DNA of 64,000 nt from Siphonodentalium dalli (Eukaryota > Mollusca > Scaphopoda > Gadilida > Siphonodentaliidae), in NCBI GenBank assembly GCA_032622095.1, contig CP136061.1:4706505-4770504 (forward strand). The letters are read 5' to 3'. Shown in pieces: positions 3,001-59,862 of the stretch. Position numbers and translations under genes: made by a program. The first letter of the stretch is position 1. Every line of letters begins with the position of its first letter. The notes beneath the pieces were generated by a model. It searched no databases, was not told where the DNA came from, and was given only the letters and a program-made list of their open reading frames with translations.

Positions 3001-3017
3001 ATAGGCACAGCATTAAT
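1..3017. repeat. Satellite array, 66-68 bp monomer, about 45 copies
   Basis: The array begins before the window and stops abruptly at cagcattaatt near 3,017. Every monomer contains gggcgttaatagatggctga, then a variable joint, then atgtatagacacagcatt and aatacatcatg. Two joint variants alternate: gaagacaatgg gives 68 bp and gaaggatgg gives 66 bp. Runs of 66-bp monomers stay in frame and produce spurious repetitive ORFs on the plus strand; the 68-bp monomers break them, so coding is not supported. Distinctive variants recur about 1.2-1.28 kb apart (for example 8 and 1,283; 627 and 1,832), which indicates a higher-order unit of roughly 18-19 monomers. Confidence 0.97.
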
Positions 3018-17936: not shown

Positions 17937-19291
17937 ACTTCGTCCGGGCTTTGACCTTGAATTGTCCATTTTGAAGGTCAAGTGGGGTCACGATTTGACC
18001 AGTCCAAAACACTGCCCGACAAAAGTACCAGACAAACGTGCCAGTCGAAATATATCCGGTTTTACCCGATTTGACCTTGAATTGATCATTTTGAATGTCA
18101 AGGTCAGGTCGGGGTCACGATTTGACCCATCCAAAACACTCAATGGACAAAAGTAACCCTATGTATAAAATTTCGTCGAAATCCCATCAAAATTGGCGAT
18201 TTTACCTTGAATTGACCCGATTTCAAGGTCAAGGTCACGTCGTACGGGCAAATGAATATGCTTATGAGACTCCCCATACGAAAGTTCCCCCACATACCAA
18301 GTTTCATCGAAATCCCGTGATATTCGGGCGTTTGACCTTGAAATCACCCGATGTCAATATCAAGGTCACGTCGCACGGGCAAATTAATAGGTTTAGGCCA
18401 CTCCCCACCCGAAGGTCCCCCCACATACCAAGTTTCATCGAAATCCCGTTATATTCGGGCGTTTGACCTTGAAATTACCCGATTTCAAGGTCAAGGTTAC
18501 GTCGCACGGGCAAATTAATAGGCCCATGTCACTCCCCGGCCGAAAATACCCACACATACCAAGTTTCATTGAAATCGGCTCGGCCGTCTTTGAGTCCATC
18601 GATTACAGACAGACACACACACAGACACACACACACACAGATCTTCCAAAAATATATAATAGATACTAGCAGGTTAGCCCGCCACTGGCGGCAATAGTCA
18701 GAAACATGACAATTTTAATTTAATTTTTTGTTTTTCAATGTGTTAATTTTTTTTGTTTTTCAATGAGTTAATTGTGCCTTTTTAATTTTTTAATTGAATT
18801 TTTTGTTTTTAAATTTTACCCGATTTTTTTTGGTTTTTCAATGAGTTAATTGTGCCTTTTTAATTTTGTTTTTCAATTTTACCCGATTTTTTTTGTTTTT
18901 CAATGAACCCGTCCATGACACTTCCCGTATTTAGCAAGTTTGAGCTCAATCGGTTCAAGTCAATAAAGGACACACACATATATATGACACTTCCCGTAGG
19001 TAGCAAGTTTGAGCTCAATCGGCATTCCCTGGGATTTCCCAGTCAATATTTAGCAAGTTAGAGCTCAATCGGTTCGAGTCTATAAAGGATACACTCATAT
19101 ATATGACACTTCCCATAGGTAGCAAGTTTGAGCCCAATCGGCATTCCCTGGAATGTCCCAGTCACCAACGCGGCGTAATTTTGGTACATATATAGAGACC
19201 AATTGTCCATCGGCTGTCATGTGTAGTAAAGATGCCGTGGGGATGCCCGTTCCTACACGCGTTTTCGATTCTATGAAGTACCCACATATAT

Positions 19292-19337
<46 letters not shown>

Positions 19338-20068
19338 ATTATATATTTTGGAAGATATGTGTGTCTGGGTGTCTGTCTGTGTGTCTGTCTGTGTGTTCGC
19401 GATGAACTCGAAAACGGCCAACCCGATTTCTATGAAACTTGGTATGTGGGGGTATTTTCGGCCGGGAACGAACATAGGCATATTAAGTTGTCCGTGCGAC
19501 GTGACCTTGACCTTGAAATCGGGTAATTTCAAGGTCAAACGCCCGAATATCACGGGATTTCGATGAAACTTGGTATGTGTGGGTATCTTCGGCCGGGGAG
19601 TGGCATAAACGTATTAATTTGTCCGTGCGACGTGACCTTGACCTTGAAATCGGGTCATTTCAAGGTCAAATGCCAAATATTACGGGATTTCAATGAAACT
19701 TGATATGCGGGGGTACATTCGTATGGGGAGTCTCATAAGCATATTCATTTGACCGTGCGACGTGACCTTGAAATCGGGTCAATTCAAGGTCAAATCGCCA
19801 ATTTTGATGGGATTTTGACGAAATTTGATACATGGGTGTACTTTTGTCAACTGCGTGTTTTGGACGGGTCAAATCGTGACCCCGGCCTGACCTTGACCTT
19901 CAAAATAATAAATTCAAGGTCAAATCGGGTAAAACCGGATGGATTTCGACGGGCACATTTGTCGGGTACTTTTGTTCGGGCAGTGTTTTGGACTGGTCAA
20001 ATCGTTACCTCAACTGACCTTGACCTTAAAAATGGTCAATTCAAGGTCAAAGCCCGGACGAAGTCGGG
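17937..20068. mobile_element. 2.1-kb foldback element with long tandem-repeat arms
   Basis: The left arm (17,937-18,665) starts acttcgtccgggctttgacc, and the right arm (about 19,300-20,068) is its reverse complement, ending ggtcaaagcccggacgaagt. Each arm is built from units with TGACCTTGA, gatttcaaggtcaaggtcac, gtcgcacgggcaaattaata and cataccaagtttcat. Units are separated by roughly 100-140 bp. Arms meet a central segment through acacacac (left) and tatata/gtctgtctg (right) simple repeats. There is no transposase frame; long apparent frames follow the repeat units. Confidence 0.88.
18662..19284. repeat. Central segment of the foldback element, with a 125-bp-class tandem dimer
   Basis: The segment begins tactagcaggttagcccgcc, which also occurs at 21,306. 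It contains T-rich blocks repeating tttttgtttttcaatgagtt, then two copies of a unit with tgacacttcccgta, gagctcaatcgg and gcattccctgg (18,915-19,165). No coding signal was found. Confidence 0.75.
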
Positions 20069-22670: not shown

Positions 22671-24992
22671 GGTCAAAGAGGCAAAAACAAACGTATTTTT
22701 TACAACCTCATGCAATTGTTTTTACCAAAGACCGTTTGTGCCCGTATTTGACATTTTTAACAGTTTAAAACATATTATATCGGTAAACAAAAACCTAAAA
22801 CATATTATATCAGTAAACAAAAACCACATATTAATGTTACTGGGAGCTCGTATGGACATTAGTGGCTACGCCATGTTGCAGATGGGACGTTGAGGTGAAA
22901 AAAGTTCCTCACAGAAGGTGTATGAACTCTTTGACGGTTCAGCAAACCATAATGTGCATGCTATAGATACATTCAAGGAAATATATTGATGAACCATTCT
23001 TTTTGTCTAACGTTCTGTTGTTTTATTTTTTGTTTGGAAATTGTTGGAATCCAATGGCTCGTTTAAAATGTCGTATGTACGAATGCTCGTGTTATACATC
23101 TGTAACATATGTTCAACCGTTACCAGGAACCACACTGCATGGACCAAAATACCGTTACCAGGAACCACACTGCAAGGTCCAAAATGTATTATGGCCAAAT
23201 GCAAATATTGTGTGGCAAATGATAGCTGGTCGAAGTTAAGGGGTTAATGGACAGACCTGGAACTATGGTGCCGGACATTTGCAGAATAACTCCACATAGG
23301 TTGAATTTAGTGACCTTACAGCGGGATATCATAACTAAATGCACTCTCTGTGGCCTCATTATGCGTATGCCTTCTTCTCTCTGCTAAGTATGTTTATCAA
23401 ATCAACAAGATGTTTAGTTACTTCTAAGAATCTTTTTATTTTCAGTTTAGTTTCTCTATACCCTCCAAATCGGCAGACGATACATTGCATAAGTCTAGGT
23501 CGCCCATATCAGATGAGGCCATGCAGAATGAGGTCCCCGGAGGATGAATTTGGTGACGCTAGCCCGCTGTGTGGGGTGGATTTACTAAATTAATTCTACA
23601 AATGACTGGCACCATAATCTCATGCCTGTTTTATGGAACATTTGATTTGACAGTTGCCAATGGCCAATTCAAAGATGCATTATCCATCGAAACAAAACTT
23701 GTGGATTCAGATAATCAACATGTAACGCATCTGCAGATGTCATGAACTGAAATGACAATTAATTAATCCCGATGAGGCCATAATTTGACCTCGATCCGGT
23801 GGATTATAATAAAACATTTAAACAAATCACTCACCAATATAACGATATAATGTATACATAAACTTGTGGACACCCATTCGGCGTGAAGCACTCCACTCGA
23901 TCTTTCCGACCATTCCATGCGCTTTGTGCCCAACTACTCTCTATGTGTCGACACCATGAACGAAAAGGGGTTGATATGATAACACCACCAGCATCCCATT
24001 GGACGGTGTCAAATGTTCAAATATATAACTATATATTAACTCCCTTAAACCATTTTTTACTAAATATTCATTGACAAGTAGTTCCCTTGTGAAATGTTCA
24101 GATAATAAGTTCGACGAACTACCAAGAACTGATTGTTATTAATTAATATAAATTATTTTGAACTTGTATTTTCATTTTGTATGTCTGTCGTCTGCTTACG
24201 ATTCCTGAACACCCCTCCGAATGAATAATAGACCCTTCGAATGTATACTTGTTATAACCGATGGGATCATCCATTTAGTCTAGAAAGGTTTACACCTGAC
24301 AAACTCATGGACATTATATATGCACCCAGTCCCATACCTTTGGATAAAATTTCCTGTTTCCCCAAGCTTTCTAACAGTTTTGAATGTCCAATTTGACATC
24401 CACAATGGTTTACATTTCCAAACTGATGGCAGTTCCAGCCCAAAAACTTGAACGAAACTATGAAAATATTCGGCTTTTGATCTAAAAGCGAAATTATTTC
24501 ACACGAATTAGTGGTTGGAAATTATATCAGGCATGTCATTTTCAAGTGTTGAACATTTGGAATAGTTGAGACACCCAACTACCTGTCGCAAAATCCCTTT
24601 ATATTGTGTCCCGTGGCTGCATGCAAAATGTTATCAAAGATATATCAAGCAAGTATCAGGTTAGCCAATATATTAACATGTCATAGGAAGTAGCCTGCTA
24701 AATTCGTCACCTGTGTTTTTAGCATTATTTGTCATCGGCATATAATTAGGTTGACGGTCGGGAGGGGGGGGGGGTCGGCTACCCAAAACTGGAAATGGGA
24801 GTTTCGGTCGTTCGAGGTTAATTCTAATCGTATATAGGTTGATTGTTGAACTTATTATCTGAACATTTCCCACCGTTGATGTGAATAATCCGGCAATTTT
24901 ATTTTTTCCTGGTTATCGTCTGTTTTTATAACCTGAACACCCCTCCAAATATAATACTTTTCCAATGTGTTCTTTTATTTCTCCCAAAAGGG
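22671..24992. repeat. 2.3-kb block, copy 1 of a direct segmental duplication
   Basis: It matches 25,958-28,310 almost throughout, with a period of about 3.3 kb. Its start is ggtcaaagaggcaaaaacaa and its end is cccaaaaggg. Internally it has a 33-bp unit (gttaccaggaaccacactgc) present twice, an inverted pair containing aatgttcagataataagttc (24,091 and its complement at about 24,848), and cctgaacacccctcc repeated at about 24,206 and 24,932. A run of G near 24,764 is shorter than in copy 2. No protein family was recognised in either copy, and the short frames are not conserved between them beyond sequence identity. Confidence 0.93.
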
Positions 24993-25957
24993 TGATATTA
25001 ATATTGAACCTGTTAATATTTTACCCGGGTCTCGCGGTTTACCAACACGAGTAGACGTTTGCCCGGAATTGCCATTGGTTTTCTTTGTTATCATATTGAA
25101 TCATATGAAACCAACTCCCGAATCGCATATAATACCAGCCCAGATTTATTGACAGGGCGCCAATTACTAGCGTAACTATAAATCACCGGGGACAGCCCGG
25201 ATCAGCTGGGATCCGAATCAGCCCAGACCAGCCCCATGCTGTATATGCGGGATTTTAAAGATCATCACAGTGCGGGATCGCACGAAAACACACACATGAC
25301 TGAAACGACGATAAACATAAACAAACCAAACCATAATGTAAGCCTGCTTACCGGGTTACCATATGACTGGACCAACGATATACCCCAAACCATAATGTGA
25401 TCCTGCTTACAGGGTGCCATGACAGGACCAACAATATACCCCAAACCATAATGTGGTCCAGCTTACCGGGTACCATATGTCTGGCCCAAGTATATACCCC
25501 AAACAATAAGATGCTGCGTTGTTATCTTGTCCTGATGATGCCGGGGTCAAGGCTGTTAGGAAACTGTCAAATTCCGGAGAGCCCACCCCACGATAGCTTT
25601 ATATATATAGCAGGATCGTTTAATCAGACTTGAAACAAACTAAACATTAATTAGTTGCGAATATTTATGCAGACAATTAACCTTGCTCAACCATTCATGG
25701 CGGGAGATGCACTGGCGCAGCATTAAAGGTCTTGTGCCAGTGCATTATCTTATATTATGCGAGTCTCTCATAGATAGCTTCGCATTTATGAGAGAATGCA
25801 CTGGCTTACATGGTAAAGGTAACATGTGTTATTCCTGTATGAACACCTCAACGGAATCATGGCAATATAAGTTATTTTCATAAATTTGATATCATATAGT
25901 CATAAAACAGCGTCATTCTTATAAAAAATCCCAGGCATATTATTTTATTCGGTGGGT
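24993..25957. other. Spacer between the duplicated blocks
   Basis: Unique relative to the flanking copies. It contains the 62-bp tandem repeat listed separately and short repeats of atgcactggc at about 25,708 and 25,796. No gene was recognised. Confidence 0.6.
25325..25510. repeat. About 62-bp tandem repeat, three copies
   Basis: The unit ccaaaccataatgtgatcct, then gcttac-ggg, then ggaccaa-atatacc recurs at about 25,325, 25,386 and 25,441, with a partial fourth at 25,498. Copies differ by small indels. Confidence 0.85.
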
Positions 25958-28310
25958 GGTCAAAGAGGCAAAAGAGGCAAAAACAAACGTATATTTTACA
26001 ACCTCATGCAATTGTTTTTACCAAAGACCGTTTGTGCCCGTATTTGACATTTTTAACAGTTTAAAACATATTATATCAGTAAACAAAAAACACATATTAA
26101 TGTTACTGGGAGCTCGTATGGACATTAGTGGCTACGCCATGTTGCAGATTGGACGTTGAGGTGAAAAAACTTCCTCACAGAAGGTGTATGAACTCTTTGA
26201 CGGTTCAGCAAACCATAATGTGCATGCTATAGATACATTCAAGGAAATATATTCATGAACCATTCTTTTTGTCTAACGTTCTGTGGTTTATTTTTTGTTT
26301 AGAAATTGTTGGAATCCAATGACTCGTTTAAAATTTCGTATATACGAATGCTCGTGTTATACATCTGTAACAGAGGTTCAACCGTTACCAGGAACCACAC
26401 TGCATGGACCAAAATACCGTTACCAGGAACCACACTGCAAGGTCCAAAATACCGTTACCAGGAACCACACTCCAAGGTCCAAAATGTATTATGGCCAAAT
26501 GCAAATATTGTGTGGCAAATGATAGCTGGTCGAAACTAAGGGGTTAATGGACAGGCCTGGAACTATGGTGCCGGACATTTGCAGAATAACTCCACATAGG
26601 TTGAATTTAGTGATCTTACAGCGGGATATCATAACTAAATGCACTCTCTGTGTCCTCATTATGCGTGTGCCTTCTTCTCTCTGCTAAGTATATTGATCAA
26701 ATCAACAAGATGTTTAGTTACTTCTAAGAATCTTTTTATTTTTAGTTTAATTTCGCTATACCCTCCAAATCGGCAGACGATACATTGCATAAGTCTAGGT
26801 CGCCCATATCAGATGAGGTCATGCAGAATGAGGTCCCCGGAGGATGAATTTGGTGACGCTAGCCCGCTGTGTGGGGTGGATTTTCTAAATTAATTCTACA
26901 AATGACTGGCACCATAATCTCATGCCTGTTTTATGGAACATTTGATTTGACAGTTGCCAATGGCCAATTCAAAGATGCATTATCCATCGAAACAAAACTT
27001 GTGGATTCAGATAATCAACCTGTAACGCATCTGCAAATGTCATGAACTGAAAGGACAATTAACTAATCCCGATGAGGCCATAATTTGACCTCGATCCGGT
27101 GGATTATAATAAAACATTAAAACAAATCACTCACCAATATAATGATATAATGTATACATAAACTTGTGGACACCCATTCGGCGTGAAGGACTCCATCGAT
27201 CTTTCCGACCATTCCATGCGCTTTGTGCCCAACTACTCTCTATGTGTCGACATCATGAACGAAAAGGGGTTGATATGATAACACCACCAGCATCCCATTG
27301 GACGGTGTCAAATATTCAAATATATAACTATATATTAACTCCCTTAAACAATTTTTTACTAAATACTCATTGACAAGTAGTTCCCTTGTGAAATGTTCAG
27401 ATAATAAGTTCGACGAACTACCAAGAACTGATTGTTATTAATTAATATACATTCTTTTGAACTTGTATTTTCATTTTGTATGTCTGTCGTCTGCTTACGA
27501 TTCCTGAACACCCCTCCGAATGAATAATAGACCCTTCCAATGTATACTTGTTATAACCGATGGGGTCATCCATTTAGTCTAGAAAGGTTTACACCTGACA
27601 AACTCATGGACAGTATATATGCACCCAGTCCCATACTTTTGGTTATAATTTCCTGTTTCCCCAAGCTTTCCAACAGTTTTGAATGTCCAATTTGACATCC
27701 ACAATGGTTTACATTTCAAACTGATGGCTGTTCCAGCCCAAGAACTTGAACGAAACTATGAAAATATTCGGCTTTTGATCTAAAAGCGAAATTATTTCAC
27801 ACGAATTAGTGGTTGGAAATTACAGATGATGTTATATCAGGCATGTCATTTTCAAGTGTTGAACATTTGGAATAGTTGAGACACCCAACTACCTGTCGCC
27901 AAATCCCTTTATATTGTGTCCCGTGGCTGCATGCAAAATGTTGTCAAAGATATATCAAGCAAGTATCAGGTTAGCCAATATATTAACATGTCATAGGAAG
28001 TAGCCTGCTAAATTCGTCACCTGTGTTTTTAGTATTATTTGTCATCGGCATATAATTAGGTTGACGGTCGGGGGGGGGGGGGGGGGGGGGGTCGGCTACC
28101 CAAAACTGGAAATGGGAGTTTCGGTCGTTCGAGGTTAATTCTAATCTTATATAGGTTCATTGTTGAACTTATTATCTGAACATTTCCCACCGTTGATGTG
28201 AACAATCCTGAAATTTTATTTTTTTCCTGGCTATCGTCTGTTTTTATAACCTGAACACCCCTCCAAATATAATACTTTTCCAATGTGTTCTTTTATTTCG
28301 CCCAAAAGGG
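25958..28310. repeat. 2.3-kb block, copy 2 of a direct segmental duplication
   Basis: Near-identical to 22,671-24,992. Differences include three rather than two copies of the 33-bp gttaccaggaaccacactgc unit at 26,382-26,490, a 9-bp repeat of caaagaggc at the start, a lost 28-bp repeat near 26,070, a small insertion near 27,830 and a much longer G-run (28,071-28,090). The changes are small relative to length, so the duplication is recent. No coding function was recognised. Confidence 0.93.
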
Positions 28311-30059: not shown

Positions 30060-31030
30060 GACACAGAAATGTGTGTGAACATGATACATACATCCCCTTG
30101 ATCCGGGTGAGCACAAGATACATACGGCGCCTTGATCTGTGTGTGAACATGACACAGTCATGCATCGCCTTTATCTGTGTGTGCACATGGCACATACATC
30201 GCCAAGATATGTGTGTGACCATGATACATACATCGCCTTGATATGTCTGTGGACATGATAATACATCGCCTTGATGTGTGTGTGAACATGATAAATACAT
30301 CGCCTTGAGCTGTGTGTGCACATAATACATACATCGCCTTGATTTGTGTGTGAACATGATACAGACATCACCTTGATATGTGTGTGAACATGATACATAC
30401 ATCGCACTGATATGTCTGTGGACATGATACATACATCGCCTTGATTTGTGTGTGAACATGATACATACATCGCCTTAGTCTGTGTGTGAACATATACACA
30501 CATCGCCTTGATCTGTGTGTACACATGATACACGCATGGCCTCGGTATGTGTGTGTGAACATGATACATACATCGCCTTGATTTGTGTGTGAACATGCCG
30601 CATACATCGCCCTTGATATGTGTGTGCACATGATACACGCATCGCCTTGATTTGTGTGCGCACATGATACACGCATCGCCTTGATTTGTGTGTGAACATG
30701 ATACATACATCGCCTTGATCTGTGTGTGCACATGATACATACATCGCCTTGATTTGTGTGTGAACATGATACACACATCGCCTTGATATGTGTGTAAGCA
30801 TGATACATACATCGCTTGATCTGTGTGTGCACGTGATACATGCATCGCCTTGATTTGTGAACATGATACATACATCGCCTTGATTTGTGTGTGAACATGA
30901 TACATACATCGCATTGAGTTGTGTGTCAACATGATACATATATCGCCTTGATATGTGTGTGAACATGATACATACATCGCCTTGATATGTGTGTGAACTT
31001 GATACATACATCGCCTTGATCTGCGTCGAG
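30060..31030. repeat. Minisatellite, 34-37-bp unit, about 26 copies
   Basis: The unit is tgtgtgtgaacatgatacat followed by acatcgccttgatt/atatg. Most copies are close to 36 bp, so overlapping minus-strand frames stay open for up to 278 codons and read as H-T-x-I-K-A-M-Y-V-S-C-S repeats. These are by-products of the repeat: three frames are open at once and internal units vary by indels. The array joins R1 copy B at 31,030. Confidence 0.96.
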
Positions 31031-43375: not shown

Positions 43376-44539
43376 TTTTATGGTTTATGCCATTATGGCA
43401 AAGGAGATGTCAAGGCCTAGTAACTACTTACTGGGTGGACAGCACCACACCGACCCGCCGGACTAGCAGGAAAATACTAGTATGAGGGATCGACTGGTAA
43501 CCGAGAGTGACCCCTCGGCTATCTACATGTCAACAAAGGATACAGGATAGTATAACGGCCGATCATTCTGTCGTCATATATGAAAATTTTCACGTGATAT
43601 GTGTACAAAACAAATGTATGCATAACATGACGGAAAAGGAACATAGCACCAAGATTTATTAGGGATATGGGAATATCTTATTGTTATGCTGTCCAAATTG
43701 TAGTACAGGTACATGTTACCCCGTACATCGTGATATGAAATTTATGAGGCATGATTCGGGAAGTGATTTAGTTGACGCTCTTCATTTTGCATCAAGTTAT
43801 GGTATTGTGTTATTAGTAGCTGTGTAGCTTAAAAATTATAATTTTTTATCTCATCCACTAAGCTATAATATTTTATAGTGTATATAGTAGTCCCTGAGTT
43901 CCCGCTAATGAGGGGAGCTGGCTATACTAACATAGGGTGATAACAGTCAATGATAAATAGTAGTCAACAATAGGTACAGATATATATATGGTTTATTGTT
44001 TAAATAAAAGTAAAAATACAGTGATTCTGATCTGTGAATGTCGCTAAGCATTTTGAGAGCGCACAGTGAAATGTTTCAGAGAAAGATTTACTACGACCAG
44101 GCCGAAATATGTCACAATTACAAAGTTTGGTATGCCAGAAAATAACAGTAGGCTACGGTGGTCATCGGAAGCGCCCATGAGTTGTATAATGAACGAAATG
44201 AGTCCATTATTATATGATATGGTTTCGACGAGTAAGCGCCTGACCCTAGGTCCTCATGACTCGTCACGAAAAGGTGATTACGACCAGTCACCTTCCCGTC
44301 CACCAAGCCCAAAAACAGGCCAAAATCAACTCTAAGCTGAGGACAACCAGATCAGAATATTAAGAAAAACGCGCGCGATATCAGTGCACTGCACGCGATG
44401 TAGACCGATGCGCGATTAAAAAACAGACGTAATACACATACATAAATATAATTAAATAAAGTGAAGTCAGTGAAGTGGAGATATTTTTTACATGTAGTCA
44501 TTGTGCCATCATGGGCGAAGATATGGGTGGGCAATATGT

Positions 44540-48736: not shown

Positions 48737-49717
48737 TATGGTTTATGCCATTATGGCAAAGGAGATGTCAAGGCCTAGTAACTACTTACTGGGTGGACAG
48801 CACCACACCGACCCGCCGGACTAGCAGGAAAATACTAGTATGAGGGATCGACTGGTAACCGAGAGTGACCCCTCGGCTATCTACATGTCAACAAAGGATA
48901 CAGGATAGTATAACGGCCGATCATTCTGTCGTCATATATGAAAATTTTCACGTGATATGTGTACAAAACAAATGTATGCATAACATGACGGAAAAGGAAC
49001 ATAGCACCAAGATTTATTAGGGATATGGGAATATCTTATTGTTATGCTGTCCAAATTGTAGTACAGGTACATGTTACCCCGTACATCGTGATATGAAATT
49101 TATGAGGCATGATTCGGGAAGTGATTTAGTTGACGCTCTTCATTTTGCATCAAGTTATGGTATTGTGTTATTAGTAGCTGTGTAGCTTAAAAATTATAAT
49201 TTTTTATCTCATCCACTAAGCTATAATATTTTATAGTGTATATAGTAGTCCCTGAGTTCCCGCTAATGAGGGGAGCTGGCTATACTAACATAGGGTGATA
49301 ACAGTCAATGATAAATAGTAGTCAACAATAGGTACAGATATATATATGGTTTATTGTTTAAATAAAAGTAAAAATACAGTGATTCTGATCTGTGAATGTC
49401 GCTAAGCATTTTGAGAGCGCACAGTGAAATGTTTCAGAGAAAGATTTACTACGACCAGGCCGAAATATGTCACAATTACAAAGTTTGGTATGCCAGAAAA
49501 TAACAGTAGGCTACGGTGGTCATCGGAAGCGCCCATGAGTTGTATAATGAACGAAATGAGTCCATTATTATATGATATGGTTTCGACGAGTAAGCGCCTG
49601 ACCCTAGGTCCTCATGACTCGTCACGAAAAGGTGATTACGACCAGTCACCTTCCCGTCCACCAAGCCCAAAAACAGGCCAAAATCAACTCTAAGCTGAGG
49701 ACAACCAGATCAGAATA
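48737..49717. repeat. 5.36-kb tandem repeat, unit 2, part before the palindrome
   Basis: Virtually identical to 43,379-44,359. It ends in aaccagatcagaata, the 15 bp repeated at 58,021-58,035 on the other side of the palindromic element. The shadow frames 49,424-49,693 and 49,476-49,670 duplicate those in unit 1. Confidence 0.95.
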
Positions 49718-49860
49718 GCCGTCTCGTTACCTTCACATCTAAAAATAGAATCTTTGGGTCTAAAATTGGTTGTGGGTGTCTCGTTCGCCTCACATCTCAA
49801 AATAGAATCTTTGGGTCTAAAATTGTTTGAGGGTAAATTGTTTGAGGGTAAAATTTTTTG
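49718..49860. repeat. Left subterminal repeats of the palindromic element
   Basis: The 58-bp phrase tctcgtt-cc-cacatct-aaaatagaatctttggg occurs twice in direct orientation at 49,722 and 49,780, followed by short gtttgagggtaaa repeats. The right end (57,880-58,011) mirrors it with one additional gtttgagggtaaa copy. Confidence 0.88.
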
Positions 49861-49865
49861 TACTA

Positions 49866-50045
49866 AAATATTCTCAAAACTTCCAAAATATCAAAACCCA
49901 AAACTTCCAAAATTTCAAAACCCAAAACTTCCAAAATTTCAAAACCCAAAACTTATTTTTCCAAAACAAAAAATTTCAAAACCCCAAAACTTCCAAAAGA
50001 AAAAAATTCAAAACCCCCAAAATTATTTCTCTAAAAAAAAAGTTT
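49866..50045. repeat. A-rich minisatellite in the left arm
   Basis: About 25-bp units of caaaacccaaaacttccaaa. The mirror image lies at 57,665-57,845. It produces frames of repeated QNF/KLPKF peptides that are compositional only. Confidence 0.9.
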
Positions 50046-50670
50046 AAATAAAAAATTTATAACGAGTTTTCGGTTTCTGATAATCTCGATATTAAAATGT
50101 CGAATGTTTATAAATAGCTTTATACCAATTATATGTGTATGGACAGGTCCGAGTCGCTGTAATGTTGGGCATTGTGAGACAGGTGTGTATTATCGTGAAT
50201 TATTGGAAGTATTGAGATGTACTATGTTGAATCACGAGTGGACGAAAAGGGTAATGTGAAATTACAACCCCCAGAATGAATTGTCATATTCGATGGAACA
50301 TATTGTCAAGTATGTACACACGACATTGTGGGTAACAATGTGTCTTTCACACCTTGCTTTACCAAATGAATTCTATTATATTCCCGTTCACAATTATATG
50401 CCATTCAGAAAACATATCGATTTAATGTCTGAGCAGTATTAGTTGTTTAACGGGTTAGTATCAATTAAGGTTGATAAACTGTGTCATTGTTAGCATTAAC
50501 ACGATAATTAGTTATCCAAAACATGCATACATAATACGTCCAGGTCACTCAATAATAGAAATTGCTTCGGTGTCATTGTTATAACAACATTACGTAATAA
50601 CCACTTATCATTCCATTCACACTTACGCTCATTTTGTATACCAAAAATTTCAATATAATGAAGATGACGA
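50046..50670. other. Left-arm segment without recognised gene
   Basis: AT-rich sequence, mirrored at 57,040-57,665. No coding signal was found. Confidence 0.55.
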
Positions 50671-50700
50671 AAAGTTACCTATAATTCTGCTGTGGTTAAG

Positions 50701-50702
50701 CC

Positions 50703-50741
<39 letters not shown>

Positions 50742-50808
50742 GTCACCAAGCGACATAACATCCTGCTTTGATGATCCAATGGCCAATGTCCATGAAGATT
50801 TTATTTCC
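50701..50808 (+). pseudogene. Short fragment of the ATPase gene, inverted within the left arm
   Basis: A CAA run is followed by agtcaccaagcgacataaca and sequence that reads ITSCFDDPMANVHEDFI, the stretch just before the P-loop in the full gene. It is oriented opposite to the main gene of this arm. It is bracketed by direct copies of aaaagttacctataattctg at 50,670 and 50,838. It cannot encode an ATPase because the Walker motifs are absent. Confidence 0.85.
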
Positions 50809-50814
50809 GATGCA

Positions 50815-50890
50815 AGTCATATTTCCGACTAACTCCTGAAAAGTTACCTATAATTCTGCTGTGGTTAAGCAGTCCATTATTTAGGGCATA
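50815..50890. repeat. Distal member of a 70-bp inverted repeat nested in the left arm
   Basis: catatttccgactaactcct through gcagtccattatttag is the reverse complement of 53,728-53,799. The pair encloses the 3-kb gene-bearing core of the left arm. The right arm has the same pair (53,955-54,028 and 56,830-56,900). Confidence 0.9.
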
Positions 50891-51056
50891 CCTGTATGTA
50901 GGCCTACCAGTGGATGAATAGTCTGCCGGAGAAGTACTGTGTAGACAGGTCTTGTCGGTAAGAGAGTCAGACGAGAAGTGAAGGCTCGGCTATTAAAACA
51001 TAGTAATGCGATAGCGAACATCAAACGAGTCTGCGCACGCATATCTGTCAAATGAT

Positions 51057-51148
51057 ACAATGGCAGTCATTGGTCAATTTATCCCCGGTGTCAGCTCAGT
51101 ACAATAGCAGTCATTGGTCAATTTATCCCCGGTGTCAGCTCAGTACAC
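51057..51148. repeat. 44-bp tandem dimer in the left arm
   Basis: agtcattggtcaatttatcc, then ccggtgtcagctcagtaca, occurs twice with a 44-bp period. It is mirrored at about 56,567-56,660. Confidence 0.9.
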
Positions 51149-51183
51149 AATCGGCACGAAGCCGGAGGTCATAATTACTCTTA

Positions 51184-51690
51184 CGAATGAAGAGCGTTGA
51201 ACATATACGAAATTATTACACGAATGAACTGAAATTTATATTTCACATCTTACCAACAACAGATACAGACATAGTCATAGTGTTATACTATCTTACATGT
51301 ACCCATGCTATGACATCATTCGAAGGGGCAATACACTCAAGGAGTTAAAGTGACACGAAACAAGGGACGTGATGTAATATTGGTGTATGAATCTTAAAGG
51401 AACACAAGACACTCTAAAGGGACACTCATTATGAATGATTGTTAACAATACAAGCGCACGAATGAAGAGCGTTGAACATATACGAAATTACTACACGAAT
51501 GAACTGAAATTTATATTTCACATCTTACCAACAACAGATACAGACATAGTCATAGTGTTATATTATCTTACATGTACCCATGCTATGACATACTTAAAGG
51601 GGGATAATGCACACACGGTGTGTGGAATGTTAAAGTGACACGAGGTAAGGGACGTTATGTAATATTGGTGTGTGAATATTAAAGGAGCAT
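51184..51690. repeat. 275-bp direct repeat 3' of the left ATPase gene
   Basis: cgaatgaagagcgttgaaca at 51,184 recurs at 51,459. Each is followed by ttacatgtacccatgctatg, then agtgacacga and then gggacgt-atgtaatattgg. The mirror array lies at 56,030-56,540. Confidence 0.9.
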
Positions 51691-51770
51691 TCTCGCTATA
51701 CAAACCCCCCTCCCCAGTTATAGATATATAACGAAGACGAGAATAACATGTTGATGAAGTTTATTGAAAT

Positions 51771-53300
51771 TTAATCATTGTCTGAATCTTCGACCGTTAG
51801 ATTTACTTCTAAGAGTTTCTTGAATTTTCTCATCGCTTCATCTGCAGCCCATTCATTATTATATCCGCGTTTGGTCAGTTTGACCATTTTCTTCATGATC
51901 GTGTTATGTATGGGTGATGTTTTCAATCGATACTGGTATTCTATTAATCGTCTATAACTTTTGAGAAACAGAACAAACTCTGTGTCGATGGTATCCTCTT
52001 TTCCCGACATGCTCTCATCTCCCGAAATGCTCTCTTCTTCTTTCACATCATTGGTGACGCGTTTCATCATACTTTTGAATGTGTCCATCTCGTTGACACA
52101 TCGCGCAGCTTTCTTAAGACCGAATACCGTTCTACTACCGACGACATTACCATCTTTTGAATCTGATAGCGTTCCTCGTTCATCTTCATCTGTATCTTCT
52201 CCGAAGAGAGTTGTTTTTGTCTCGGACATAGCTCCGTGTTCATCCGGGTCCTCAGTTAATTTTCGTTTTAACTTATTTTCTTGACACCAGTGTCTCTGAA
52301 CATCATAATGATCTGCGAACAAAAGCCCGCATTCATTACAAGGGTACGACATGTCTTCTCGAATGTCTATACGTTTCTTCTTATTAATTTCATCGAGCTC
52401 ACCAGGTGGCCGTATGTCGTTAGTATAGTCATTATGTTGACCCTGGGGCACAATATAATTATATGTTATGCCCTTCTGTTGACCAGGGAGTTCTCTGTCA
52501 TCGTATTTCATCGCATTCTGTTGACCCTGGGTCTCAGTGTCTTTTGTATGTTTTTTCATCCCATTCTGTTCATCTGGGTGTTCTCTGTCTTTTTGGAGAT
52601 TATATTTCATGCCATTCCATTCACCCCTATGTTGGTTCGTGTCCTCTTTTAGTACATTCTGTCGCAGACGTAATGTGTCCGGTGTTGCGGCTTTAAATCC
52701 ACCAGTAGGTAACCGTACGGTTCACTCGTCGCTTCCGAAAACTCTCGAACCATACGCTGAGGACATTCAGGATACATCTGTCTTGATAATGTTGAAATTA
52801 ATCCCTTGTCGATTGGGTTATTGAACAATACCAAATATTGACAATTTCGTCGTTGCGTTGGATCTTTGTTGTAGTAGAAATTCTGGTTCAAACTTATCAA
52901 AGATAAGTTCAAATGGTGACTTCCTTCGGAATGCAAATCATTAACTCTCTGGTCTTTTGATGAAGTTTGCATCAAGTCATCGAGTATAACTAGATTTTTA
53001 TACCGGGGGTTGATAAGCGAATCCAAGTTTGCTGGTATTCCTCGTATAAAGTTGACCTGAGGGGTGACGGTATACTTTAATTCGTCATATAGGGGCTGAC
53101 AATATTTATAAAACCATATTATTCTGTCAGGTGCGGGTGATATTTTTGAGGCAGACTTTTGTAGTAAGGTTTTCACGAAGTATGTCTTACCACAAGATGT
53201 CGGTCCACTTACACATGCCGTGAATGGATGCTTGAAAATAAAATCTTCATGGACATTGGCCATTGGATCATCAAAGCAGGATGTTATGTCGCTTGGTGGC

Positions 53301-53376
<76 letters not shown>

Positions 53377-53390
53377 GGGGGTGATGATAC

Positions 53391-53423
<33 letters not shown>

Positions 53424-53545
53424 GGCTGATTATACTGTTGTTGTTGTTGTTGTTGTTCTGAAGGCGTGTGTTTAACTTTGATATGACGCTTCAAACTATC
53501 TTGCCAAGCATAGACACTTAAGCACTCTTCACATTGATACTTCAT
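51771..53545 (-). pseudogene. Zinc finger-polyQ-ATPase-zinc finger gene, left-arm copy (frameshifted)
   Basis: The start at 53,545 gives MKYQCEECL, a C2H2 finger (C-x2-C-x12-H-x4-H). A very long glutamine tract follows, encoded by a CAA/CAG-type repeat (53,300-53,455), then the ATPase domain with Walker A GPTSCGKT and Walker B VILDDL. The frame shifts near 52,692 through loss of one base in an A-run relative to the right copy, so the first frame ends at 52,649. The rest continues in another frame to 51,771. A 9-bp deletion removes three residues between His and Cys of the second finger, spoiling its spacing. AATAAA lies 6 bp past the stop (51,760-51,765, minus strand). The ATPase resembles packaging ATPases of Polinton/adenovirus-type elements, by motif only. 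Confidence 0.85.
53285..53456. repeat. Trinucleotide (GTT/CAA) repeat encoding polyglutamine, left copy
   Basis: Long GTT runs interrupted by gggggtgatgatac and ggctgattatac blocks. It is longer than in the right copy (54,296-54,403). Frames of pure leucine or valine on the plus strand are artefacts of it. Confidence 0.95.
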
Positions 53546-53817
53546 TTAACTAGTTCAGGCTGTCGTTCACAACGTCTCTTAGTGTTGTTTGTACTGGATA
53601 CAAATTTATCACATTAGCTACAATACAACCTACCTATCCAAATGTCAATGCAATTATGAGTGATTTCAATATGAACACTCTATTATATAGATATGTGTAA
53701 CCTGGTGACTGACATGATGATACAGTTATGCACTAAATAATGGACTGCTTAACCACAGCAGAATTATAGGTAACTTTTCAGGAGTTAGTCGGAAATATGG
53801 CTTGTTGCCATTCATCG

Positions 53818-53893
53818 GAAAGCTCTCGCCGCCGGCGGCGGCGGCGCCGGCGGCGGCGGCGGCGGCACCACCGCCGCAGTAAAATACCGCAAT

Positions 53894-53924
<31 letters not shown>

Positions 53925-53945
53925 GCGAGAGCTTTCCGATGAATG
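53818..53945. repeat. GC-rich hairpin at the palindrome axis
   Basis: ggaaagctctcgccgccggc, then GGC repeats, then a spacer of about 30 bp (caccaccgccgcag, taaaataccgcaatg), then GCC repeats and the complement ending gcgagagctttcc. The whole can fold into a strong stem. It is not perfectly symmetric: run lengths differ between sides. Its base composition is unlike anything else in the window. Confidence 0.93.
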
Positions 53946-54208
53946 GCAACAAGCCATATTTCCGACTAACTCCTGAAAAGTTACCTATAATTCTGCTGTG
54001 GTTAAGCAGTCCATTATTTAGTGCATAACTGTATCATCATGTCAGTCACCAGGTTACACATATCTATATAATAGAGTGTTCATATTGAAATCACTCATAA
54101 TTGCATTGACATTTGGATAGGTAGGTTGTATTGTAGCTAATGTGATAAATTTGTATCCAGTACAAACAACACTAAGAGACGTTGTGAACGACAGCCTGAA
54201 TTAGTTAA

Positions 54209-54368
54209 ATGAAGTATCAATGTGAAGAGTGCTTAAGTGTCTATGCTTGGCAAGATAGTTTGAAGCGTCATATCAAAGTTAAACACACGCCTTCAGAACA
54301 ACAACAACAACAACAACAGTATCATCAGCCATAACAACAACAACAACAACAACAGTATCATCACCCCC

Positions 54369-54405
<37 letters not shown>

Positions 54406-55945
54406 GCCACCAAGCGACATAACATCCTGCTTTGATGATCCAATGGCCAATGTCCATGAAGATTTTATTTTCAAGCATCCATTCACGGCATGTGTAAGTG
54501 GACCGACATCTTGTGGTAAGACATACTTCGTGAAAACCTTACTACAAAAGTCTGCCTCAAAAATATCACCCGCACCTGACAGAATAATATGGTTTTATAA
54601 ATATTGGCAGCCCCTATATGACGAATTAAAGTATACCGTCACCCCTCAGGTCAACTTTATACGAGGAATACCAGCAAACTTGGATTCGCTTATCAACCCC
54701 CGGTATAAAAATCTAGTTATACTCGATGACTTGATGCAAACTTCATCAAAAGACCAGAGAGTTAATGATTTGCATTCCGAAGGAAGTCACCATTTGAACT
54801 TATCTTTGATAAGTTTGAACCAGAATTTCTACTACAACAAAGATCCAACGCAACGACGAAATTGTCAATATTTGGTATTGTTCAATAACCCAATCGACAA
54901 GGGATTAATTTCAACATTATCAAGACAGATGTATCCTGAATGTCCTCAGCGTATGGTTCGAGAGTTTTCGGAAGCGACGAGTGAACCGTACGGTTACCTA
55001 CTGGTGGATTTAAAAGCCGCAACACCGGACACATTACGTCTGCGACAGAATGTACTAAAAGAGGACACGAACCAACATAGGGGTGAATGGAATGGCATGA
55101 AATATAATCTCCAAAAAGACAGAGAACACCCAGATGAACAGAATGGGATGAAAAAACATACAAAAGACACTGAGACCCAGGGTCAACAGAATGCGATGAA
55201 ATACGATGACAGAGAACTCCCTGGTCAACAGAAGGGCATAACATATAATTATATTGTGCCCCAGGGTCAACATAATGACTATACTAACGACATACGGCCA
55301 CCTGGTGAGCTCGATGAAATTAATAAGAAGAAACGTATAGACATTCGAGAAGACATGTCGTACCCTTGTAATGAATGCGGGCTTTTGTTCGCAGATCATT
55401 ATGATGTTCAGAGACACGTAAAAAACTGGTGTCAAGAAAATAAGTTAAAACGAAAATTAACTGAGGACCCGGATGAACACGGAGCTATGTCCGAGACAAA
55501 AACAACTCTCTTCGGAGAAGATACAGATGAAGATGAACGAGGAACGCTATCAGATTCAAAAGATGGTAATGTCGTCGGTAGTAGAACGGTATTCGGTCTT
55601 AAGAAAGCTGCGCGATGTGTCAACGAGATGGACACATTCAAAAGTATGATGAAACGCGTCACCAATGATGTGAAAGAAGAAGAGAGCATTTCGGGAGATG
55701 AGAGCATGTCGGGAAAAGAGGATACCATCGACACAGAGTTTGTTCTGTTTCTCAAAAGTTATAGACGATTAATAGAATACCAGTATCGATTGAAAACATC
55801 ACCCATACATAACACGATCATGAAGAAAATGGTCAAACTGACCAAACGCGGATATAATAATGAATGGGCTGCAGATGAAGCGATGAGAAAATTCAAGAAA
55901 CTCTTAGAAGTAAATCTAACGGTCGAAGATTCAGACAATGATTAA
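54209..55945 (+). pseudogene. Zinc finger-polyQ-ATPase-zinc finger gene, right-arm copy (nonsense codon)
   Basis: ATG at 54,209 opens the same N-terminal C2H2 finger, but TAA at 54,332-54,334 interrupts the glutamine tract (the left copy has CAA). The same frame resumes and runs from a Met at 54,443 to 55,945, 500 codons. In that numbering Walker A GPTSCGKT is at 20-27, Walker B LVILDD at 91-96, and an asparagine/glutamine segment SLISLNQN at 121-128 could be sensor-like. Residues about 215-285 are a Q/G-rich repeat (about 16-residue units). A C2HC finger (C309, C312, H325, C330) follows, and then an acidic, K-rich tail. AATAAA is at 55,951-55,956. The 500-codon frame could still make an ATPase protein lacking finger 1. 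Family by motif: FtsK/HerA- or IVa2-like packaging ATPase; a cellular P-loop protein is the alternative. Confidence 0.85.
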
Positions 55946-55950
55946 ATTTC

Positions 55951-55956
55951 AATAAA
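55951..55956 (+). promoter_or_regulatory. AATAAA polyadenylation signal
   Basis: Begins six bases after the stop of the right-arm gene, a compact arrangement more usual for mobile or viral-type genes than for host genes. The mirror copy is at 51,760-51,765 on the minus strand. Confidence 0.6.
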
Positions 55957-56910
55957 CTTCATCAACATGTTATTCTCGTCTTCGTTATATATCTATAAGT
56001 GGGGAGGGGGGTTTGTATAGCGAGAATGCTCCTTTAATATTCACACACCAATATTACATAACGTCCCTTACCTCGTGTCACTTTAACATTCCACACACCG
56101 TGTGTGCATTATCCCCCTTTAAGTATGTCATAGCATGGGTACATGTAAGATAATATAACACTATGACTATGTCTGTATCTGTTGTTGGTAAGATGTGAAA
56201 TATAAATTTCAGTTCATTCGTGTAGTAATTTCGTATATGTTCAACGCTCTTCATTCGTGCGCTTGTATTGTTAACATTCATTCATAATGAGTGTCCCTTT
56301 AGAGTGTCTTGTGTTCCTTTAAGATTCATACACCAATATTACATCACGTCCCTTGTTTCGTGTCACTTTAACTCCTTGAGTGTATTGCCCCTTCGAATGA
56401 TGTCATAGCATGGGTACATGTAAATTAGTATAACACTATGACTATGTCTGTATCTGTTGTTGGTAAGATGTGAAATATAAATTTCAGTTCATTCGTGTAA
56501 TAATTTCGTATATGTTCAACGCTCTTCATTCGTAAGAGTAATTATGACCTCCGGCTTCGTGCCGATTGTGTACTGAGCTGACACCGGAAATAAATTGACC
56601 AATGACTGCTATTGTACTGAGCTGACACCGGGGATAAATTGACCAATGACTGCCATTGTATCATTTGACAGATATGCGTGCGCAGACTCGTTTGATGTTC
56701 GCTATCGCATTACTATGTTTTAATAGCCGAGCCTTCACTTCTCGTCTGACTCTCTTACCGACAAGACCTGTCTACACAGTACTTCTCCGGCAAACTATTC
56801 ATCCACTGGTAGGCCTACATACAGGTATGCCCTAAATAATGGACTGCTTAACCACAGCAGAATTATAGGTAACTTTTCAGGAGTTAGTCGGAAATATGAC
56901 TTGCATCGGA

Positions 56911-56974
56911 AATAAAATCTTCATGGACATTGGCCATTGGATCATCAAAGCAGGATGTTATGTCGCTTGGTGAC

Positions 56975-57010
<36 letters not shown>

Positions 57011-57011
57011 G
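56911..57011 (-). pseudogene. Short fragment of the ATPase gene, inverted within the right arm
   Basis: Mirror of 50,701-50,808 with a shorter GTT/CAA run. It encodes only the stretch before the P-loop. It is opposite in orientation to the main gene of this arm. Confidence 0.85.
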
Positions 57012-59862
57012 GCTTAACCACAGCAGAATTATAGGTAACTTTTCGTCATCTTCATTATATTGAAATTTTTGGTATACAAAATGAGCGTAAGTGTGAATGG
57101 AATGATAAGTGGTTATTACGTAATGTTGTTATAACAATGACACCGAAGCAATTTCTATTATTGAGTGACCTGGACGTATTATGTATGCATGTTTTGGATA
57201 ACTAATTATCGTGTTAATGCTAACAATGACACAGTTTATCAACCTTAATTGATACTAACCCGTTAAACAACTAATACTGCTCAGACATTAAATCGATATG
57301 TTTTCTGAATGGCATATAATTGTGAACGGGAATATAATAGAATTCATTTGGTAAAGCAAGGTGTGAAAGACACATTGTTACCCACAATGTCGTGTGTACA
57401 TACTTGAAAATATGTTCCATCGAATATGACAATTCATTCTGGGGGTTGTAATTTCACATTACCCTTTTCGTCCACTCGTGATTCAACATAGTACATCTCA
57501 ATACTTCCAATAATTCACGATAATACACACCTGTCTCACAATGCCCAACATTACAGCGACTCGGACCTGTCCATACACATATAATTGGTATAAAGCTATT
57601 TATAAACATTCGACATTTTAATATCGAGATTATCAGAAACCGAAAACTCGTTATAAATTTTTTATTTAAACTTTTTTTTTAGAGAAATAATTTTGGGGGT
57701 TTTGAAATTTTTTGTTTTGGAAGTTTTGGGGTTTTGAAATTTTTTGTTTTGGAAAAATAAGTTTTGGGTTTTGAAATTTTGGAAGTTTTGGGTTTTGAAA
57801 TTTTGGAAGTTTTGGGTTTTGATATTTTGGAAGTTTTGAGAATATTTTAGTACAAAAAATTTTACCCTCAAACAATTTACCCTCAAACAATTTTACCCTC
57901 AAACAATTTTAGACCCAAAGATTCTATTTTGAGATGTGAGGCGAACGAGACACCCACAACCAATTTTAGACCCAAAGATTCTATTTTTAGATGTGAAGGT
58001 AACGAGACGGCTATTCTTCTAACCAGATCAGAATATTAAGAAAAACGCGCGCGATATCAGTGCACTGCACGCGACGTAGACCGATGCGCGATTAAAAAAC
58101 AGACGTAATACACATACATAAATATAATTAAATAAAGTGAAGTCAGTGAAGTGGAGATATTTTTTACATGTAGTCATTGTGCCATCATGGGCGAAGATAT
58201 GGGTGGGCAATATGTCTATGACAAGACCATTATTAGAGTGGTGGTAATCAAGTAACAACATATGTCGTAACACGTGGTTATGTTATGAAAATCAGAACGG
58301 GGGGGGGGGGGGGTAAAGGGCAGTCAATCAAATTATTTGTTATATTTAGAAGCCAGTGGTGTACATGTAAACAATTAACTGTAACAGTAATGCCGATGGT
58401 ATGACCATTATTGGAGTGGTGGTAACGAAGTAAGGATATATGTCGTAAACGTGGCTATACACTGTCGCGGTAATGTTGTAAAATCCTGAATGGGGCGGGG
58501 GGGGGGGGGGTTGTAGCCAACCAGATATCTAAGTTGGCAATTTGGTACCAGTTTATATGGTATGGAATTACAATTATTGATCAGATATGGATATGCAACA
58601 ATAATATATACATGTTATTAAACGCAACTATACTGTCACGAAAAGCTTAGGTATATACACATAACTATACAGTGGGGATAAGGGTGGGATGGGTTATGGA
58701 AGGGCCGTGGATTAGTATTGATTTCCATGTAATTTGCGTTGAATGCGGTGCACATTCAATCAAATGGTCTCTCAAATGTTAATAATAACTATATTTAGTT
58801 ACTTAGGTTTACTCGTTTAATAGAACCGATGTAGACGAGGGTATCTCATATATGAATGAAATTTAAGTGTAAATTGCGATATTGAATAAATCTAATTCTA
58901 AGTTACCTTATGTGAATGCATGCCATAGTATTATATAGACAATGTAGATTCCGTCATCCCTGTCATTCGAATTATTTCTGTGTATCTATCTTATATACAT
59001 GTGCACAATATTCAGAAATCAACGAACACACGCAGCCCAACTCCGCGGATCCATGGCAGCAAATGATTTCAAACGATACTTGTTGACGCACGTAATGACG
59101 TAGTTAAACGTAAAGCAAGTCGCGCGATTGAATGACGTCATAGTCAACAGGTGCTTGGCGTGGCAGGGCTGTATACATATGCCTGTGGGGAGGGGGATCA
59201 TAGGGGGCTTCAGCAAGGATAGATATCCATGATTGATATAATTTGTCTGGTCAACAGTACTATTGTGCATGCATGGCATTAAATGCATGGTACCATGACT
59301 GTACTGTCGTGGTAATAGTTATGAAACGGGAGGGGTAGCTAAAATTTCTTTATAATCTGATAGGTATCATGACGTTTAGATCATGATTGATATAAAATAT
59401 TATCGTTTCAACAGTAATATTATGCATGTATGGCATAGCAAGGTACCATGACTGAACTGTCGTGGTACGAGTTATGAAACAGGAGGGGGTAGCTAAAATT
59501 TCCACACCAGTCCTGACTCAAACACCAAACCAAGGAATAGTAATTGATGTCATGATGAGTGTAGACACGAAAGTAAGCAAAGAAATGTTTAAAATTTGAA
59601 CATGTCATGTGCCGTGAATATATCATAGAAAGCTTGTTAAAGGTATATGAAACGCGGACAGTGGGTAATATCCGGGTGGGGTGGGGGTGGCTGTGGATAT
59701 AGTATCGTTAATTAGATAATAATAGTCAACAGTTTCTTATTGGAACAGGGTAATATATATATATTTGAAATAGGCAATATATTATATAGAGTAATGAAAC
59801 AATTTTTTAAATGTACAGTATATATAAAATAGGTTGTCGTTTGTTGGAACCCCCCCCCGCCC

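Follow-up and report, generated by a model that had tools for sequence, protein, structure and literature searches.

What is the 8312-bp inverted repeat at 49709-58020 of the DNA analysed here, and how does it come to carry the same gene twice? The window, that is, the whole stretch of 64,000 nt, comes from Siphonodentalium dalli (GCA_032622095.1, CP136061.1 positions 4,706,505-4,770,504, forward strand). Sequence comparison indicates that the element probably belongs to a high-copy family of palindromic, non-autonomous Polinton/Maverick derivatives with a likely 16-kb partner.

The palindrome and its copies

The two arms, each of ~4.2 kb, aligned over 4070 positions with 16 mismatches and 6 gap events, an identity of 99.61% that leaves out the 60 columns nearest the axis (99.3% when the axis loop is counted in). 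An earlier note on this DNA had described arms mirroring each other down to a GC-rich axis, which was confirmed. The palindrome therefore stands, whereas its limits, placed at 49718 and 58011 in that note, are corrected to 49709 and 58020. The features are as follows.

49703..49708, left 6-bp target-site duplication AACCAG; same hexamer at 58021-58026, single in the empty site
49709..53877, left arm, 4.2 kb, from alignment to the right arm
49709..50168, plus strand, left terminal region, corresponding to the terminal repeat in ~16-kb elements
50669..50897, plus strand, remnants of gene-upstream and polyglutamine (polyQ)/ATPase-start sequence (inverted repeats I1, I2 and I24)
51771..53545, minus strand, left-arm finger-polyQ-ATPase-finger gene (open reading frames 52649-53545 and 51771-52721; Pox_A32 above cut-off)
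53815..53940, GC-rich axis hairpin, from folding; core reduced in the window copy
53878..58020, right arm, 4.1 kb, from alignment to the left arm
54209..55945, plus strand, right-arm finger-polyQ-ATPase-finger gene (Pox_A32 match; open from 54335)
57561..58020, minus strand, right terminal region with the end AGAAGAATAG, from end comparison among copies
58021..58026, right 6-bp target-site duplication AACCAG, matching the left hexamer

The host flanks of the element form a tandem array of ~5.36-kb units (43375-64000, with ~0.84-kb subrepeats, nearly identical between units), and another host unit has an unoccupied site at 44345-44359 with AACCAG present once, in agreement with the empty version reported nearby. 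Continuous host DNA around the element, together with the empty unit, indicates insertion in one piece, and a foldback assembly artefact is not expected to look so. Some long-read libraries produce artefactual palindromes, and the present one is known from the assembly alone. Nevertheless, considering the continuous flanks with their empty unit, the 6-bp duplications, the unequal arms and 18 further complete copies, a foldback read joined into the assembly is extremely improbable. The element is thus, as had been proposed, a head-to-head (inverted) dimer in shape, integrated as one piece. Target duplications of 15 bp or 9 bp were considered for the window copy and rejected, since other copies have 6 bp and the left-end triplet is altered here: the left end opens with ATC, the triplet of the empty target, and not with AGA.

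The subterminal repeats of the earlier description were found as a 57-bp tandem pair and an AT-rich array of short repeats. In addition, each arm holds older remnants of gene-upstream and gene-start sequence (50669-50897, opposite in orientation to the left-arm gene, and mirrored in the right arm at ~56819-57050), which we regard as evidence of an earlier rearrangement.

Further dimers with the same ends, for which a genome search had been suggested, were found. A 301-bp probe inside the ATPase gene gave 920 genome candidates, 40 of which were scored; these 40 matches were near-identical, and 30 of them made 15 plus/minus pairs, 14 of which were 1.4-2.0 kb apart. Twenty of the 24 other elements behind the scored matches were fetched. 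Both ends were visible in 18 of the 20, and all 18 were palindromic; the other two (L045 and L050), whose ends were not both seen, were left out of the end and arm counts. Together with the window copy, the 19 palindromes measured 7.9-9.1 kb and fell into at least two sequence groups. Perfect 6-bp target duplications were present in 18 of the 19 copies, and that of the 19th (L049) becomes exact too once the left end of this copy is taken as (AGA)3. Moreover, AGAAGA starts 37 of the 38 ends, the exception being the left end of the window copy.

According to excerpts of PMC8097293, vertebrate Mavericks have duplications of 6 bp, and their ends carry repeats, (AGT)2 or (AG)3 for example, that are linked to jumping-back in protein-primed replication. 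The 6-bp duplications and terminal inverted repeats with AGAAGA tandem ends argue for a Polinton-derived family. Polintons measure 15-20 kb and carry an FtsK/HerA-type packaging ATPase (excerpts of PMC4028283); at 7.9-9.1 kb, the palindromes would be a non-autonomous Polinton-derived variant, not a full Polinton.

The ATPase gene and the axis

The gene encodes, in order, a C2H2 finger, a polyQ tract, a P-loop ATPase and a second finger; the two inverted copies noticed before were borne out. The Pox_A32 family matched the ATPase above its cut-off, and the protein is of the FtsK/HerA genome-packaging type of Polintons/Mavericks. Bivalve relatives of the ATPase were fused to an integrase or an adenovirus-type protease, and a Mytilus relative was joined to the latter. 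Both genes of the window copy are broken as assembled: the left-arm gene has a 1-base loss near 52691, where the frame is lost, and a 9-base in-frame loss near 52289, and the right-arm gene has a stop inside the polyQ (54332-54334). Among the 19 copies, the frame was open in both arms of 13, encoding 564-589 amino acids. Besides this gene, one frame of more than 200 amino acids was found in the arms of the 19 copies; it has 258 amino acids, overlies the terminal repeat array and is located terminally in both arms of L037.

Scans of viral and genome contigs with the ATPase and its alignment returned no relatives. For one of the window ATPase proteins PHROGs gave no match, the other had six weak matches, all across the polyQ, and a PDB sequence search with the ATPase protein gave zinc fingers only below E 0.02. 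No Pfam match to an RVE-family integrase was found in ten outer and axis frames of the window element, and none of the 120 relatives listed matched outside the ATPase gene. On these scans, an integrase or protease remnant in the outer arm was rejected.

The GC-rich hairpin at the axis was confirmed by folding, as 53815-53940 reached -82.5 kcal/mol versus a mean of -44.9 kcal/mol for 200 shuffles. A complete axis core, arranged as A-B-C-A' and 84-93 nt long when excised, was present in 12 of the 21 copies examined and was reduced or not recognised in the others, the window copy included. With a stem of ~20 bp and two hairpins of ~10 bp, it has the shape of a T-shaped double hairpin, and three cores folded as DNA gave z values of -9.9 to -12.0. 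The complete core occurs in both sequence groups, so the axes with a core descend from a common ancestor.

In shape, this core is similar to the terminal repeat of a parvovirus. A ~4.2-kb linear monomer with the T-shaped axis as its one hairpin telomere could replicate by the rolling-hairpin route, and the dimer alone would integrate, having two integrase-competent ends, which would account for the complete copies being dimers. However, no Rep/NS1-like frame was seen in the copies, and the core, where present, lies inside the element. In the earlier interpretation, a linear element of ~4.1 kb once had the axis as its terminal hairpin, and a search for single-arm copies ending at the hairpin had been suggested; no intact one was found among the 20 fetched copies, L045 and L050 resembling copies with one shortened arm (the left end of L050 lies outside the fetched stretch). 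That interpretation is hypothetical, and we consider a rolling-hairpin monomer quite unlikely.

The other origin raised before was a foldback transposon formed after integration; palindromes would then arise independently once a normal Polinton has integrated. The inverted repeats of foldback-type elements are known to grow by repair, and the presence of at least two palindrome groups would fit repeated origins. On the other hand, the complete core is common to both groups, the arms are symmetric between perfect duplications, and the copies occupy different sites with their own 6-bp duplications, all of which leaves this origin very improbable.

Equal arms and the 16-kb class

Arm identity within a copy was 98.9-99.95% (median 99.8%, 19 copies), whereas left arms of different copies were 79.9-99.3% identical (median 91.4%), and sister arms grouped together for 18 of the 19 copies in a midpoint-rooted tree of the 38 arms. 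The closer match within copies suggests that the palindrome moves as a unit and that its arms are made equal. The terminal 30 bases, though variable between copies, were identical at both ends in 18 of the 19. Genome-wide, the terminal pattern had 531 + 508 matches (control: 0). The first 100 of these 1039 places, all on contig C1, were surveyed and gave 44 plus/minus pairs and 12 unpaired ends, the latter left out of the overlay. The same variable code was found at both ends in 43 of the 44 pairs, against an expectation of 0.008 for two random copies.

The variable positions of the terminal repeat (11, 12, 14 and 21-25) use a limited letter set in many combinations, with 37 distinct codes among the 44 pairs, each shared by the two ends of its copy. 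Separately, six element ends in the same direction, ~5.4 kb apart and with one identical terminal code, lie at C1:159746518-159773483 and represent either the element or its site arranged in tandem.

Codon differences between the arms of one copy were a near-neutral mix (5 synonymous, 19 nonsynonymous), and variants common to both arms showed 3 synonymous to 1 nonsynonymous columns (p = 0.058). The summed ratio of nonsynonymous to synonymous differences (pN/pS) was 0.19 to 0.55 between copies and 0.77 between arms. So the arms appear to have been equal at insertion, each decaying on its own afterwards. The ATPase gene was probably kept by selection between insertions, its low variation being partly due to the choice of copies, as the probe lies in this gene.

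Alternatively, the arms might have been equalised after insertion by gene conversion in the chromosome and not during replication. Long inverted repeats in chromosomes can undergo conversion, and the ATC triplet shared by the left end of the window copy and the empty unit suggests some conversion at this locus. The near-neutral differences within copies indicate, however, that conversion is inefficient, and the terminal codes also agree across a distance of 16 kb, between the two ends of each of the 10 ~16-kb elements listed. Conversion as the general source of equal arms is credible but unlikely.

These ten elements, of 15.6-17.4 kb, were found among the 44 end pairs. One of them was read at its ends (445 bases each, with 2 mismatches between both ends), and five of the six bases of its target duplication were visible on each side and agreed. 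Its 445 terminal bases aligned over their full length, at 81-92%, to 16 of the 19 palindromes, and more patchily to L035, L043 and the window copy (arm positions 4-65 at 87% and 141-400 at 79%). For a Polinton-type integrase query, 16 of the 24 scored places on C1 were overlaid on the end pairs, the other 8 being outside the listed range. Four of the 16 fell inside an end pair, all in 16-kb elements and 2.7-3.6 kb from one end, so that the integrase was detected in 4 of the 10 elements of this class. Integrase frames of 363 amino acids also occur in some inverted pairs 4.7-6 kb apart (for example C7:20590775/20595505, C3:293381343/293386029 and C6:118372922/118378930), possibly representing further palindromic elements.

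The ATPase codon pattern [DN]PT[QE]RRNC had 979 genome matches and a narrower form 977 (controls: 0); 100 listed places of the narrower form were overlaid on the 44 end pairs. The motif was present in none of the ten 16-kb elements, where an ATPase too divergent for the pattern may yet occur, and an extra C1 place of the broader form (93163330) was also outside all ten. Two motifs, divergent and symmetric, were found in 10 of the 15 elements of 7.6-9.2 kb, none of which had a single motif. Among elements of 9.4-11.1 kb, 1 of 12 had two motifs and 11 had none; below 7.6 kb, 3 of 7 had one and 4 had none. Close ATPase pairs were divergent in 33 of 34 cases. Meanwhile, of the 15 elements of 7.6-9.2 kb, 10 had the axis core at most 250 bp from their centre, as did 3 of the 12 measuring 9.4-11.1 kb, and the core was seen in 0 of 10 of the 16-kb class. 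A central core was also present in motif-free elements, namely 3 of 11 of 9.4-10.5 kb and two of 7.8-8.0 kb. On C1 the ATPase motif also occurs in two further spellings, grouped by letters. Some of these places formed divergent pairs, 7 with a spacing of 1.9-2.9 kb and 3 with one of 1.3-1.6 kb, and the others were unpaired.

Several points weigh against a palindromic Polinton derivative with a 16-kb partner. The assignment draws on ends, duplications, ATPase and integrase, not on polymerase or capsid genes. Peptidase_C5 (adenovirus-type protease) gave no match genome-wide, with its controls silent too, and Foldseek with the predicted ATPase model (mean predicted local distance difference test score 67.6) found nothing at E <= 0.001. 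The integrase results derive from 149 scored of 3234 candidates, and the copies are the best matches to a probe inside the gene, favouring young copies and an invariant ATPase. Moreover, 5 of the 15 elements of 7.6-9.2 kb had no ATPase motif, 32 of the 100 listed ATPase places were unpaired, the L032 arms were not sisters in the tree, and the p value for variants common to both arms is as given above. Finally, we infer the hairpin step of the cycle described below, and chromosomal conversion between arms could equalise them too.

In the rest of the window, a 68-bp satellite occupies 1-3017 (~45 copies, 91% matches), 17937-20064 is an inverted repeat (arms of 0.74 kb, 88%) that contains 131-bp tandem repeats, a 2.3-kb stretch occurs in two direct copies (93.7% identical) at 22675-28310, and 28 copies of a 34-bp unit form a minisatellite at 30062-31026, the minus strand of which is open. 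No known RNA or tRNA was found in the window.

A possible replication cycle and known systems

For the palindromic Polinton derivative, we propose that the 16-kb partner acts in trans on the shared ends through its integrase and a postulated protein-primed polymerase. When protein-primed synthesis displaces a strand of a full palindrome, that strand would fold into one long hairpin, the open end of which would resemble that of ordinary duplex DNA. Within this hairpin, copying and mismatch repair would equalise both arms in each cycle, and the duplex product would be integrated in one piece with a 6-bp duplication. The ATPase would probably be kept intact between insertions, and the arms would decay independently after insertion. 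A long palindrome amplified to high copy with equal arms challenges the view of palindromes as unstable passengers. The family also offers a natural test of protein-primed Polinton replication, which should take a full palindrome through a hairpin stage.

A bolder and tentative reading, which we hold possible but doubt on balance, is a segmented (multipartite) Polinton, in which the packaging ATPase is off the 16-kb integrase-bearing segment and on palindromic segments with the same ends, all segments being replicated in trans and recognised by these ends. Given the motif-free elements with a central core, palindromic segments with other content may exist, although decayed ATPase copies would look no different. 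If the packaging gene does reside on a separate palindrome, Polinton genome segmentation would have been caught inside a host genome, and a helper-satellite relation would be readable from shared ends.

Among known systems, foldback (FB) and Galileo elements have very long inverted repeats forming most of the element, and the inverted repeats likewise make up nearly the whole palindrome here. Unlike them, the palindromes have 6-bp duplications, a Polinton-type ATPase and ends common to a 16-kb integrase-bearing class.

The terminal repeat of adeno-associated virus (AAV) and other parvoviruses is a T-shaped double hairpin. The axis core shares this form, and the palindrome shares the head-to-head dimer geometry of rolling-hairpin replication (described in excerpts of PMC11575299). 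In contrast, the hairpin of the palindrome is central, integration produces 6-bp duplications and no Rep/NS1 was seen. The ends are open repeats with target duplications, and no second large conserved frame was found in the copies.

Symmetric defective genomes of adenoviruses are left-end inverted duplications, each terminus carrying the same viral end, and they depend on a helper with protein-primed replication. The palindrome similarly has the same end twice and would be helper-dependent; unlike a defective particle, the family is integrated and high-copy, with its own gene and axis.

The closest likeness is to Polintons/Mavericks (polintoviruses, adintoviruses), which share the 6-bp duplication and terminal inverted repeats with a short tandem motif (excerpts of PMC8097293) as well as the FtsK/HerA-type packaging ATPase (excerpts of PMC4028283), and the ~16-kb class combines an integrase with the same ends as the palindromes. 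In titles and abstract openings of a partly covered literature, no palindromic or segmented Polinton was described. The end motif differs, being AGA x2 in the palindromes versus AGT x2 or AG x3 in Mavericks (excerpts of PMC8097293). Furthermore, unlike a Polinton, the palindrome is 8-9 kb and wholly an inverted repeat with a T-shaped axis core, and the ATPase is the one gene found in it, present twice.

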